Shown: piece after piece, positions 56,597 to 62,781 of the stretch
Layout of the letters: each line of letters opens with the position of its first letter
Numbering within the stretch: the first letter of the stretch is position 1
Assembly: GCA_016288855.1 (NCBI GenBank)
Contig: JAEELJ010000013.1
Location: 1 to 64,000, forward strand
Origin: Acholeplasmatales bacterium
Lineage (GTDB): Bacteria > Bacillota_I > Bacilli_A > Acholeplasmatales > Anaeroplasmataceae
Direction: 5' to 3'
Length of the DNA: 64,000 nt
Notes under the pieces: model-generated
Database searches by the model: none
What the model was told of the DNA's origin: nothing
What the model saw: only the letters and a program-made list of their open reading frames with translations
Position numbers and translations under genes: made by a program

Positions 56597-57916
56597 ATGG
56601 TGAATAATGATTCTTTATTTAGTAATGCTGAAAAGAAAGCAAATAAATTTAATCTTTACTGTTTAGTTGTTATAACTATACTTTCATTTTTTGCTATTGT
56701 TTTACATTTCATTGGCATATTTAACCTTGAAAGAGAAACATTTGTGCCAGCAATGCTACAATTAGCCATTTATAGTGCAATACCAGTTATTATATATTTA
56801 TTTATCTATTATGTGAAAAAGAATAAGAATGTTTTAGAAGAAAAATATTTTAAATTTATCATTTTATTATTTGCATATGTTAGTGTCCTAGATTTATGTA
56901 TTTCACTATCATATCACTCTGTCTTACTTTTTGCAGTACCACCATTGATGGTTGCACAGTATAAAAATAATAAATTATTATCAATTGTTACTTTTATTGC
57001 ATCTATATTGTTAGTTATTATTGCAACATATGGTTCATATATTTTTGGTCAATATGATGCTAATTTATTAAAACCATTAACTAGTGAAGAAGCAAGTGAT
57101 ATTAGAAATAGATTAAATGTTTTAACTTTTAATAGAGCAATAGCTGTTTTTTCACATTATATTTTGCCAAGAACATTAGCTATTTCAGTTGTTGATGTTA
57201 TTGCTTTAACAATTTCAAAAAGAAATAGTGAAATGATTGATGAGCAAATTAAATTAAGTAATAAGATTCAAGAAGAGATTATTGCAAAATCTAATATGCA
57301 AAATGGTGTAATTGAACACTTAGCAGATATTATTGAATCAAGAGATATTGAGACAGGAGAGCATATTAAAAGAACTAAAAAATATGTGACTATCTTAGTA
57401 GAAAAAATGAAAGAAAAGGATCAATATAAGGACTATCTTACTCCTCAAATGTGTGAATATATCATTCACGCAGCTCCATTACATGATATTGGTAAAATTG
57501 CAGTAAGTGATTTGATTTTATGTAAGCCTGGAAAACTAACTGATGAAGAATTTGATAAAATGAAAATTCATACTGTTAAGGGTGGAGAAATCATTACTAA
57601 CATATTAAATGATTTAGGAGATAAAGAATTCTTAAATGTTGCATATGATGTTGCAATCTCTCACCATGAGAAATGGAATGGTAAGGGATATCCTTATGGA
57701 ATTAAGGAAGAAGAAATTCCATTTCCAGGAAGAATAATGGCAATTGCTGATGTATTTGATGCATTAGTTGCTAAAAGAGTTTATAAGGATCCTATGCCAG
57801 TAGATAAGGCAATTGATATTATTATTAATGATGCAGGATCACATTTTGATCCAAATATTGTTGAAGTATTTAAAGAAGTTATAGATGATTTCAAAAAGAC
57901 TGCAACAGAAGAATAA
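56597..57916 (+). CDS. membrane HD-GYP cyclic-di-GMP phosphodiesterase
   Basis: A 439-residue protein with about six membrane helices (residues 18-215, a possible sensor module of 5-6 segments) and an intact HD-GYP domain (about 230-430). The HD is in APLHDIGKIA (His296, Asp297); HHEKWNGKGYP (His356, His357) is the GYP signature; IADVFDALVAKRVYK closes it. It should hydrolyse cyclic-di-GMP to GMP, opposing the two GGDEF proteins in this window. ATG 56597 follows GGGG at 56588-56591. A hairpin ATTGAAAA/TTTTCAAT (57916-57941) lies after it, without a good T run. Confidence 0.9.
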   Translation: MVNNDSLFSNAEKKANKFNLYCLVVITILSFFAIVLHFIGIFNLERETFVPAMLQLAIYSAIPVIIYLFIYYVKKNKNVLEEKYFKFIILLFAYVSVLDLCISLSYHSVLLFAVPPLMVAQYKNNKLLSIVTFIASILLVIIATYGSYIFGQYDANLLKPLTSEEASDIRNRLNVLTFNRAIAVFSHYILPRTLAISVVDVIALTISKRNSEMIDEQIKLSNKIQEEIIAKSNMQNGVIEHLADIIESRDIETGEHIKRTKKYVTILVEKMKEKDQYKDYLTPQMCEYIIHAAPLHDIGKIAVSDLILCKPGKLTDEEFDKMKIHTVKGGEIITNILNDLGDKEFLNVAYDVAISHHEKWNGKGYPYGIKEEEIPFPGRIMAIADVFDALVAKRVYKDPMPVDKAIDIIINDAGSHFDPNIVEVFKEVIDDFKKTATEE

Positions 57917-57962: not shown

Positions 57963-59492
57963 ATGTTTAAGGAAATATTAATAGAGATTAAGAAGTCTTC
58001 ATTTTCAGTGCTTCCAATCTATTTTTTAATTTTATTATTACTATTATTAAAAGTAATTGATTTATCTGGATACGAGATACTTTCATTCTCTTTAGCTACT
58101 ATTTTATTAATAGTAGGTATTGCACTATTTAATTATGGTGCAGATAATGCGATGACCCCTATTGGTAAAAAAATAGGTAGAGGTCTTACTAAGCAAGGTA
58201 AAATATGGGTTTTATTCTTAGCTGTATTTGTATTTGGATTTTTAATTACAATTGCTGAACCTGATCTATCAGTTTTAGCTCAGCAAACTAAATCAGTTTT
58301 TGAAAAGCCTCTTTTAGTTATATCTATTTCAGTATCAGTTGGTTTCTTTATGTTACTAGCGATATTAAAAATAATAAAGAAAGTAAATTTAATAAGAATA
58401 TTAAGCTTACTTTATATGATTTCATTTGCCCTTGTTGCAATGATAGCATATCAAGGAAAAGAACAAATGGTTGCTTTAGCATTTGATTCAGGTGGAGTTA
58501 CAACAGGACCTATGACAGTACCATTTTTGATGGCTTTAGGTGCCGGCGTTGCATCAATTCTAGCTCAAAAGAGTGAAAAGGATGCATCATTTGGATTTAT
58601 AGCATTCTCATCAATTGGACCAGTTATCATAATGCTTTTATTATCACTTATGTCTAGTGGTAATATGACATATGAGCTTGCAGATTATTCATTATCAGAT
58701 AATTTCTTTATGAATTATATGCATTACATTTTAGAAAAATTAAAGGATGTAGGATTATCAATTGGTTTGATATTGATTTCATTCTTAGTAGTTAATTTCA
58801 TATTCTTACATTCAACTAAAAAACAATTATTATATTTAGTAAGAGGATTATTATTTGCATATATTGGTTTAGTAATATTCCTTGCAGCAGTTGATGCAAC
58901 ATATATGGGAATTGGTTATAAGATTGGTACTTTACTTGCAGATGCAGATAATTCATTAATATTATTAATTGCATTTATTATTGGTGCTTTAACAGTACTT
59001 GCAGAACCTGCGATTAAGATATTAGTTATCCAAGTAGAAGATATTACAAATGGTTTAATTAAAAGAAGAAATATGCTAATTGCTTTAGCAATTGGTGTTG
59101 GTAGTGCAATTGTATTAGCATTTACTAGAATCATTTTTAAATATTCTATCCTATATATTATTATTCCAGGATATATAACATGCTTTATCCTAGCTTTCTT
59201 TGTTCCAAAAATCTATACGGCTATCGCATTTGATGCAGGTGGAGTTGCATCAGGACCTTTAACATCAAGCTTTATTTTACCAATGGCATTAGGCTTATGC
59301 GCAGGCTTAAATGGACCTGATTCAATTCTTGCATATGGATTTGGTATTGTTTCACTTGTTGCCTTAAGTCCTCTATTATCAATTGAAATACTAGGTGTAT
59401 TCAGTGTTTTCAGTAATAGATATAAGATGAATAAAGCAATTAAAAATGTTTTAAAGGAAGACGATAAGATAATTATCTCTTTTGGTGAATAA
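57963..59492 (+). CDS. DUF1538 membrane protein, two-repeat permease
   Basis: A 509-residue polytopic protein (about 14 helices) of DUF1538 (PF07556). It is an internal duplication: E99-P (AEPDLSVL) and F174-D (FDSGGVTTGPMT) in the first half recur as E348-P (AEPAIKIL) and F423-D (FDAGGVASGPLT) in the second, with the same 75-residue spacing. Such buried acid and glycine signatures suggest an ion or small-solute transporter. ATG 57963 follows AGGTGG; the frame from GTG 57954 is longer by three residues without a site. Two PII-like genes follow at one- and two-base distances, so regulation by PII proteins is very likely. Confidence 0.82.
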   Translation: MFKEILIEIKKSSFSVLPIYFLILLLLLLKVIDLSGYEILSFSLATILLIVGIALFNYGADNAMTPIGKKIGRGLTKQGKIWVLFLAVFVFGFLITIAEPDLSVLAQQTKSVFEKPLLVISISVSVGFFMLLAILKIIKKVNLIRILSLLYMISFALVAMIAYQGKEQMVALAFDSGGVTTGPMTVPFLMALGAGVASILAQKSEKDASFGFIAFSSIGPVIIMLLLSLMSSGNMTYELADYSLSDNFFMNYMHYILEKLKDVGLSIGLILISFLVVNFIFLHSTKKQLLYLVRGLLFAYIGLVIFLAAVDATYMGIGYKIGTLLADADNSLILLIAFIIGALTVLAEPAIKILVIQVEDITNGLIKRRNMLIALAIGVGSAIVLAFTRIIFKYSILYIIIPGYITCFILAFFVPKIYTAIAFDAGGVASGPLTSSFILPMALGLCAGLNGPDSILAYGFGIVSLVALSPLLSIEILGVFSVFSNRYKMNKAIKNVLKEDDKIIISFGE

Positions 59493-59493
59493 T

Positions 59494-59814
59494 ATGAAAA
59501 ATAAAAATCTATCTAAATTATTTTTAATGGTTATAACTTTACCAAAGGGTAAAAAAGAAATTATTGGAGATATGCTTGAACGTTTTGATGTTACAGCATA
59601 TATCTCAACCTACGCAAAGGGTTCTTTAGGTAATGGTACCTCAAAGGAATTAATGTTTTGTGTAATAAAAGAGGAATTTGTTAAGGATGCTATTTTAAAG
59701 ATAGAAGATAAGTTCAATACATTTAGAAACAATGTTTCTATGATATATACAATTCCTTTATCATCAGTAATTGGTGTATCTAATTATATGATGCTATCTA
59801 ATGGAGGTAAGTAA
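59494..59814 (+). CDS. PII-like signal protein A
   Basis: A 106-residue protein with the GlnB/PII ferredoxin-like fold pattern: KLFLMVITLPKGKKEIIGDMLERFDV, a central strand FCVIKEEFVKDAILKIEDKF and a closing VSMIYTIPLSSVIGVS. The ATP-binding and T-loop motifs are not obvious (no GFG or uridylylated Tyr), so it is a divergent PII-like member. ATG 59494 is one base past the DUF1538 stop and follows GGTGAAT; the TTG-started longer frame overlaps this site. Likely binds the DUF1538 protein. Confidence 0.7.
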   Translation: MKNKNLSKLFLMVITLPKGKKEIIGDMLERFDVTAYISTYAKGSLGNGTSKELMFCVIKEEFVKDAILKIEDKFNTFRNNVSMIYTIPLSSVIGVSNYMMLSNGGK

Positions 59815-59816
59815 TA

Positions 59817-60152
59817 ATGGATATTAAATTATATAATATTGTTGCTATAGTAAATGAAGGCTATAGTGATATAGTTATATCAGTTGCTAAAGATAATGGT
59901 GCAAGAGGCGCAACAATTATTCCTGGTAACTCTAGTGTAACTGGAGATGCAATGAAACTATATGGAATTGGTGTTAAACCAGAAAAAGAAATAATATTAA
60001 TTCTTGTAAATGAAGATATTGTTGAAAATATTCTAAGTAGCTTATATGATAAGGCAGGAAGTAACACTGATGCTATGGGTGTATTCTTCACATTACCTGT
60101 AGCTCATGCATCTGAAAATATATTAAATCAATATAAGCAAAAGAAGAATTAA
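59817..60152 (+). CDS. PII-like signal protein B
   Basis: A 111-residue PII-family protein closer to the classical form than its neighbour: YNIVAIVNEGYSDIVISVAKDNGARGATIIPG (PII strand 1 and helix 1), EKEIILILVNEDIVENILSSLYDKAG (helix 2 pattern with LVNED) and VFFTLPVAHASEN (FVLPV). Begins two bases after protein A with GGAGG in its end. A second PII with a different T-loop beside a membrane protein recalls the AmtB-GlnK and SbtA-SbtB pairs, but with two paralogs on one permease. Confidence 0.8.
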   Translation: MDIKLYNIVAIVNEGYSDIVISVAKDNGARGATIIPGNSSVTGDAMKLYGIGVKPEKEIILILVNEDIVENILSSLYDKAGSNTDAMGVFFTLPVAHASENILNQYKQKKN

Positions 60153-60158
60153 AATATA

Positions 60159-60323
60159 ATGGATGAAAAGAATAAAGATATATCTAAAGATAAAATAAAA
60201 AATAATACAAAAACTTACTTAAATAATAAAATCAGATATATACCAAAAGCGGATATTGAAATGATGAGAGAAGATAATTATGAAGTAAGTGGTATAAAAA
60301 CAAAAAAGAAATATAAATATTGA
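60159..60323 (+). CDS. small basic protein, 54 residues
   Basis: Open frame starting six bases after the PII B stop with weak AGAAG in front. The product is Lys/Asn/Tyr-rich (MDEKNKDISKDKIKNN..., ending KTKKKYKY), without membrane segments or Cys. It sits between the PII genes and a terminator, so it is probably part of that transcript if real. The codon pattern matches the neighbours. Function unknown. Confidence 0.45.
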   Translation: MDEKNKDISKDKIKNNTKTYLNNKIRYIPKADIEMMREDNYEVSGIKTKKKYKY

Positions 60324-60348
60324 TACCAAGTCTTTGACTTGGTATTTA
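60323..60348 (+). terminator. hairpin terminator of the DUF1538-PII unit
   Basis: ATACCAAGTC, TTT, GACTTGGTAT (60323-60345) with a modest T tract after it. Confidence 0.65.
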
Positions 60349-61233: not shown

Positions 61234-62781
61234 TTAATAAATATCGTCTGGATATTCATCATAGTATGAGGATGTTTCTGATATGCTTGGCGCATTATCA
61301 TAATCACCTTCACTATAATCCATTAAGTTTTCTATTGACTCTTCTCTATCTTGATATGACATTTGTAAATTCTTAGTAGAAGTAATACCATCGATATTTA
61401 CAATATGAGAAGATTTTTCTTCTTCAATTTCCTTTTTATAAGAAGCCTTTAAGATTAAAGGTACAGTAAATGATGTAACAATAATCAAAATAATTAAGAA
61501 TATTTGAATTTTTGAATCAACTAATCCAGCATCAATACCCTTAGATGCTGAAACTAAGCATACCTCAGCACGTACAGTCATCGCGGCACCACATCTAAGT
61601 GAATCCTTAGTTGTATTACCTGTAATCCTTGATCCGACTGATGCACCAATAAACTTACCTAATATTGCAGCAACAACTAAGCACATACCTACACCAAAGA
61701 ATTGTAGGAAGCCTTTAGCATATTCAGCTGTGAATTCAATATCCTCTAGAGTAGTTAAGCCTATCTTTGCAAAGAACACTGGTGTGAATAGGATATAAGA
61801 AATAATATCTGTTCTACGTCCTATATATTGAGTTGATGACATATTAGCTAAAATTAAACCAGCGAAATATGCACCAGTAATATCAGCGATTCCAAACATC
61901 CACTCACTGAAATATGCAATCAAGAAGCAAAATGCTAAAGAATAAATTGGAATTCTTCTATGATGAGGATTCTTTCTTTCAATCTTCTTAAAAATTCTTT
62001 TAACAACGAATCCTAATCCAAGGATGAATACGAAGAATAATAATGTAGATAATATTACTCCAAATACACCCATAAATGAGAATGCGTTAACTAAAATACC
62101 ATTGCCGTTGAATAAGTCTATTGTAGAAGAAGTACCATCACCCTTTTTAGCAAGAGATAATACTATTGATAAAATAATAACACCAATAACATCATCTAGG
62201 ATAGCAGCAGATACAATAGTTGTACCAATTTTAGAATTAAGCTTGCCTAATTCTTTCATTGTTTGTACAGTAACTGATACTGATGTTGCAGTAAGAATAG
62301 TACCATAGAAAATCCAGCTCCAGTAATTCTTTATATATAAAGGATTACCATTTGCATCATCTATGAATGCAACCTCACCCTGCCATTCGAATTTATTGAA
62401 TGCAGCAACAACAAATACTCCTAACACCAAAACTAATAAAACATCTAAAACTGTTATAACAAGTGCGGATATACCAGTTCTTTTAACTTGATTTAAATCA
62501 GTTCCTAAGCCTGCACTAAATAGTATTAAAACAACACCAATTTCAGCAACGAATTTAACTCCAGAAACACCAGAATTTGTTAAGAAATTATCTGATACTT
62601 GAGGTATAAATCTAAGTCCACCTAAAATTAATCCTGTTAATAATAATGCAACTACCTGGGGTAAGCCTATTTTTTTAGCACCTAGCCCCATAAGTTTTGA
62701 CATACCTAGTATTAAAGCTAAGAAGATTAAAATGTCTACAACCTTAAAAGAAGAGGTTTCTAAGAAAGTCAAAAAAGACAT
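61234..62781 (-). CDS. CPA2-family cation:proton antiporter
   Basis: A 515-residue KefB/GerN-like antiporter with 12-13 helices (residues about 15-440) and a soluble acidic tail (about 445-515) without RCK domains. Family marks are GLPQVVALLLTGLILG, IGVVLILFSAGLGTDL, AILDDVIGVIILS with the essential acid pair and a late FIGASVGSRITG and MTVRAEVCLVSASKG. It should exchange sodium or potassium for protons. GGAGATGA precedes the ATG at 62781. It is divergent from the two-component system and might be under its control; no TrkA_N domain protein is adjacent. Confidence 0.88.
   Translation of the reverse strand: MSFLTFLETSSFKVVDILIFLALILGMSKLMGLGAKKIGLPQVVALLLTGLILGGLRFIPQVSDNFLTNSGVSGVKFVAEIGVVLILFSAGLGTDLNQVKRTGISALVITVLDVLLVLVLGVFVVAAFNKFEWQGEVAFIDDANGNPLYIKNYWSWIFYGTILTATSVSVTVQTMKELGKLNSKIGTTIVSAAILDDVIGVIILSIVLSLAKKGDGTSSTIDLFNGNGILVNAFSFMGVFGVILSTLLFFVFILGLGFVVKRIFKKIERKNPHHRRIPIYSLAFCFLIAYFSEWMFGIADITGAYFAGLILANMSSTQYIGRRTDIISYILFTPVFFAKIGLTTLEDIEFTAEYAKGFLQFFGVGMCLVVAAILGKFIGASVGSRITGNTTKDSLRCGAAMTVRAEVCLVSASKGIDAGLVDSKIQIFLIILIIVTSFTVPLILKASYKKEIEEEKSSHIVNIDGITSTKNLQMSYQDREESIENLMDYSEGDYDNAPSISETSSYYDEYPDDIY

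Follow-up and report, generated by a model that had tools for sequence, protein, structure and literature searches.

PII proteins are textbook homotrimers. A dedicated PII beside a membrane transporter is already known from AmtB–GlnK and SbtA–SbtB, and the pairing of two PIIs with a DUF1538 transporter described here is a variant of that arrangement. Two unlike PIIs that act together are found in NifI1–NifI2. PotN, CPII and PII-NG are likewise PII-like proteins tied to transporters or carbon uptake; each is a lone PII gene that goes with a transporter of another family. NifI1–NifI2 and GlnB/GlnK differ from our locus in their targets, which are nitrogenase or nitrogen enzymes and not an antiporter, and we know of no three-domain chain for either. 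In AmtB–GlnK the PII also adjoins or is fused to its transporter, but it is a canonical PII with intact ATP-site residues, a type present as a separate Amt–PII fusion in the genome studied here. In SbtA–SbtB the T-loop of the homotrimeric SbtB enters the transporter (PMC8352866). That system resembles ours in that a transporter gene and a dedicated PII-like gene share an operon and in that the PIIa fold matches SbtB; it differs in that a bicarbonate transporter is served by one homotrimeric PII, whereas the DUF1538 cassette has two PIIs. Unlike PIIs can share a ring, as in the E. coli GlnB–GlnK heterotrimers that are cited in PMC5448240. A preliminary description of the present DNA called its transporter uncharacterised, but an activity has been measured in the same family: UmpAB of Halomonas zhaodongensis is a DUF1538 pair that forms a heterodimer with Na+(Li+,K+)/H+ antiport activity at pH 6.5–9.5, in a paper that does not mention PII (PMC5484666).

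The window, by which we mean the whole analysed stretch of 64,000 nucleotides, comes from a 1.77 Mb genome of an Acholeplasmatales bacterium. It encodes on its + strand a two-repeat DUF1538 transporter of 509 aa (57963..59492; ATG at 57963, stop at 59492), recognized from PF07556, an AlphaFold2 model and its charge pattern. PIIa (106 aa, 59494..59814, +) begins 1 base after DUF1538, and PIIb (111 aa, 59817..60152, +) 2 bases after PIIa, which confirms the frames and spacing given in the preliminary description. That description also counted a small basic protein in the unit. This 54-aa ORF (60159-60323, +) has no homologue in relatives, the sister genome included, and was ruled out as a cassette member because it is not conserved. 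A terminator-like hairpin of 11 pairs follows it (60322..60346, +; 3 sites versus 0.8 expected, weak evidence alone) and would end the transcript after the small ORF. Upstream, a membrane protein with an HD_5/HD domain (56597-57916, same strand) ends 46 bases before DUF1538; it could be co-transcribed with the cassette, and it does not recur as a neighbour among the relatives. Further along the window lies a gene for a CPA2-type Na+/H+ or K+/H+ exchanger on the opposite strand (61234-62781, -).

PF07556 matched both halves of the transporter in two stretches (E 6.5e-113; 375.7 bits against a Pfam gathering score of 22.6), and by these matches the protein is a fused UmpA–UmpB-like chain. It shares its Pfam family with UmpAB, together with two homologous 7-helix units and conserved acidic residues, but UmpA and UmpB are separate proteins. 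The NCBIfam models UmpA (NF041627) and UmpB (NF041628) matched the first and second half at 142.4 versus a cut-off of 490 and at 102.8 versus a cut-off of 500, respectively. Both scores are far under the cut-offs and place the protein outside the UmpA/UmpB equivalogs, so we only infer its substrate and function: by analogy, it would be an UmpAB-type monovalent cation/proton antiporter. The closest relative in a named record is from Anaeroplasma sp. SUG234 (72% identity), which makes an Anaeroplasma-like bacterium the probable host. No relatives were found in the viral contigs searched. Long ORFs in two relatives, L107 and L110, were discarded as spurious N-terminal extensions.

The AlphaFold2 model of the transporter (pLDDT 86, pTM 0.85) contains 14 predicted helices. 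Its charge pattern suggests an inverted 7+7 repeat and favours a cytoplasmic location for both termini. Each half carries an EP and an FD(S/A)GGV(T/A)(T/S)GP motif. These duplicated motifs, previously described as lying about 75 residues apart, proved exact, with an E-to-D spacing of 76 in each half, and they are invariant and located at helix breaks of the model. In half 1 they are E99–P100 (58257..58262, +), a candidate ion site that is invariant in 59 relatives with a model break at 98–99, and FDSGGVTTGP (residues 174–183; 58482..58511, +), in which D175 and TTG are invariant and the model breaks after 179. Their half-2 counterparts are E348–P349 (59004..59009, +; invariant, helix break at 348) and FDAGGVASGP (residues 423–432; 59229..59258, +; D424, G426, G427 and G431 invariant, break after 425). 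Across the 59 aligned relatives, E99, P100, D175, E348, P349 and D424 are all unchanged. Invariant motifs at predicted helix breaks are consistent with paired ion sites. A Foldseek search of the PDB with the transporter model gave no match at E <= 0.001, and the family profile matched no PDB sequences. VIA-align paired the model with CLC exchangers at Z 7.3 over 147 residues, which is within the chance range for helical bundles. Neither the Foldseek nor the VIA-align result makes the transporter fold new.

We assessed the two PII proteins by profile, model and loop comparison. As single sequences, both fall below the Pfam P-II gathering score of 25 (PIIa, E 0.098, 13.5 bits; PIIb, E 0.0013, 19.4 bits), a cut-off passed by the PIIs of many relatives, and automatic annotation would therefore probably miss both. 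Profile–profile alignment of the PIIa and PIIb families gave 98.3% probability (E 2e-14), and a PDB search with the PIIb profile recovered GlnK among other P-II chains. Ubiquitin rows at the top of the PIIb single-sequence PDB search were dismissed as artefacts caused by weak matches that repeat. The PIIa model (pLDDT 87) matched PII, SbtB, CPII and PstA structures in Foldseek (E about 1e-5, probability 1.0) and CutA/PII-like chains at Z 10–12, with PotN and CPII as close fold matches. These data indicate that both proteins are real PII-fold members, PIIa having a ferredoxin-like PII fold as modelled.

The two T-loops are dissimilar, as the preliminary description had proposed. PIIa is the divergent member, with a short T-loop and its B-loop glycines lost; its T-loop region (59608..59646, +) spans 13 residues in the window and in the sister Anaeroplasma sp., compared to 20–24 (usually 22) elsewhere. 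The "GKGIAF" B-loop is absent from PIIa of the same two genomes, and in this lineage PIIa thus appears to be without sensing loops. PIIb, the PII type present in nearly all cassettes and identified by Pfam and linkage, has a full-length T-loop, with a span of 19 residues in 116 of 119 sequences. Both PIIs lack the canonical GlnB/GlnK features (T-loop tyrosine, B-loop GDGK, C-loop RxR), and the C-terminus of neither holds a cysteine motif like the CGPxGC redox loop that some SbtB proteins carry. The B- and C-loop residues are present in E. coli GlnK and in the Amt–PII fusion of the same genome. Since the B-loop Lys and C-loop Arg of the ATP site are missing in both, nucleotide binding cannot be assumed. 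The Amt–PII fusion is a 602-aa Amt ammonium transporter joined to a canonical PII domain (G000:C24; L176:331-2139 -), and its presence elsewhere in the genome argues against PIIa and PIIb as general nitrogen regulators. In the PII tree, which has few columns and some long branches and whose finer forks were left unused, a branch with 99/95 support splits PIIa from PIIb, as expected for ancient paralogues.

The preliminary description had named a lack of conserved DUF1538–PII linkage as a result that would refute it, and the outcome strongly favoured linkage. Among 55 genomes of the host family, DUF1538 is present in 44 (one a fragment at a contig end), PIIb in 43 and neither in 11. PIIb adjoins DUF1538 in all 43 genomes that have it and never occurs apart from DUF1538 in the 55. 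Two PII domains lie directly downstream at 131 of 135 DUF1538 loci (119 separate, 12 fused), and the remaining 4 are cut by contig ends. These 135 loci were drawn from the host family, its phylum and 80 genome-collection matches; they are biased to the window's relatives, include repeats of one place (e.g. L001 and L002) and are not fully independent. Antisense frames of the trio aside, no other flanking family recurs in more than 9 of 80 loci. The cassette also occurs on Clostridia plasmids and in genomes labelled Fibrobacterota and Bacteroidota, phylum labels that come from metagenome bins and may be wrong. In the PII tree the Fibrobacter cassette nests among Bacillota, a placement that fits transfer. 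RefSeq labels some DUF1538 neighbours "P-II family nitrogen regulator", and the pairing of DUF1538 with PII was not found in titles or abstracts of the open literature. Such linkage is evidence of functional coupling rather than of direct binding.

The number and fusion of PII domains vary among the cassettes. A single PII is found with split DUF1538 genes on the alphaproteobacterial plasmids of Methylocystis and Chelativorans, and also at L181. Most cassettes have two separate PIIs. Where the pair is fused, the order is a–b without exception, and PII fusions sit at more than one place in the PII tree. One locus (L192, G060:C31) has three separate PIIs in the order b–a–b; a further cassette in that genome, L193, carries a pair of PIIs. 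At L177–L180, L182, L183 and L186, three PII domains form one chain of about 376–406 aa, and the DUF1538 proteins beside these chains are longer (550–708 aa). The three domains matched PII profiles at 95.3, 98.7 and 96.5%, compared to 0.1–0.4% for reversed controls, and in L183 each was matched directly (E 7e-13, 4e-15 and 1e-8). These chains are possibly natural single-chain PII trimers, and they speak indirectly for a trimeric assembly. In L184 (G359), split DUF1538 genes have two PII genes upstream rather than downstream.

The transporter ends in an acidic tail, EDDKIIISFGE (residues 499–509; 59457..59489, +), in which I505 and F507 are invariant. The family consensus, DDxxIIxF, was found at 113 of 117 two-PII loci, at all 14 Fibrobacter-set loci and in 6 of 7 clade-2 fusions. 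It occurs at 0 of 10 loci of an early-branching group, whose members have one PII or two, and at 0 of 7 triple-PII loci, and clade-1 fusions are in effect without it. A tail match in one clade-1 fusion, L054, lies inside the last helix and was rejected as not a real tail. The tail-less L034 and L027 bear the two longest PIIa branches. The tail appears to follow one PIIa clade, and its distribution mainly reflects a single lineage and not many independent events. Together with the two invariant residues, this distribution makes the tail a candidate docking peptide for PII, as a lead and not as proof.

We propose, with confidence that is evenly balanced between belief and doubt, that the cassette encodes an antiporter of monovalent cations and protons, and that PIIa and PIIb gate it as a hetero-oligomeric complex. 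The dedicated PII complex would sit on the cytoplasmic face of the antiporter and set its activity. PIIa and PIIb would act jointly, most likely in one hetero-oligomeric ring, with PIIb as the subunit with the full-length T-loop and PIIa mainly anchoring the ring to the transporter, perhaps via the acidic C-terminal tail. The ring would shift its seating on binding a small molecule, probably an adenine nucleotide, and the antiporter would open or close in response, as in GlnK–AmtB and SbtB–SbtA. A c-di-AMP cyclase domain is encoded in the genome, which makes c-di-AMP a candidate ligand and no more. A heteromeric PII had been suggested in the preliminary description; the a–b fusions, the three-PII chains and the b–a–b gene trio favour it. 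More tentatively, and with doubt prevailing, the ring could be obligately hetero-oligomeric, with PIIb as sensor and PIIa docked on the tail, in a series that ends with the single-chain PII trimers.

PIIa and PIIb might instead form two separate homotrimers, whose rings relay two independent signals to one antiporter. Homotrimers are the default assembly of known PIIs, the two proteins are ancient paralogues with unlike loops, and linked stacked trimers (3+3) could equally give a–b fusions. Recurrent a–b fusions together with three-domain chains suit one mixed ring better, however, and we consider two homotrimers unlikely. It is also unlikely, in our judgement very unlikely, that the PIIs act on other targets, such as enzymes or regulators, and have only the operon in common with the transporter: multiple targets are common among PII proteins, but PIIb keeps to DUF1538 throughout the 55 genomes and the linkage persists through fusion, splitting and several phyla.

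The transported substrate could likewise be something other than Na+ or K+, such as bicarbonate, another anion or an organic acid, with PII coupling its transport to carbon or nitrogen status. Cation antiport in the DUF1538 family rests on only one study, which was heterologous, and the low UmpA/UmpB equivalog scores, the lack of a clear PDB match and the weak resemblance to CLC Cl-/H+ exchangers would all fit another substrate. On the other hand, the CLC match lies within the chance range for helical bundles, the paired helix breaks carry invariant acidic residues that suit cation or proton binding, and the ions with which UmpAB showed activity were Na+, Li+ and K+. A substrate of this other kind therefore seems improbable to us.

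In conclusion, a cation/proton antiporter gated by PIIa and PIIb would, if true, show how a symmetric PII sensor ring turns asymmetric, from one PII to two, to fused, to three and to a single chain. Monovalent cation/proton antiport would then join the PII-controlled processes in rumen and gut bacteria, and a transporter family that has hardly been studied would gain partners open to testing.
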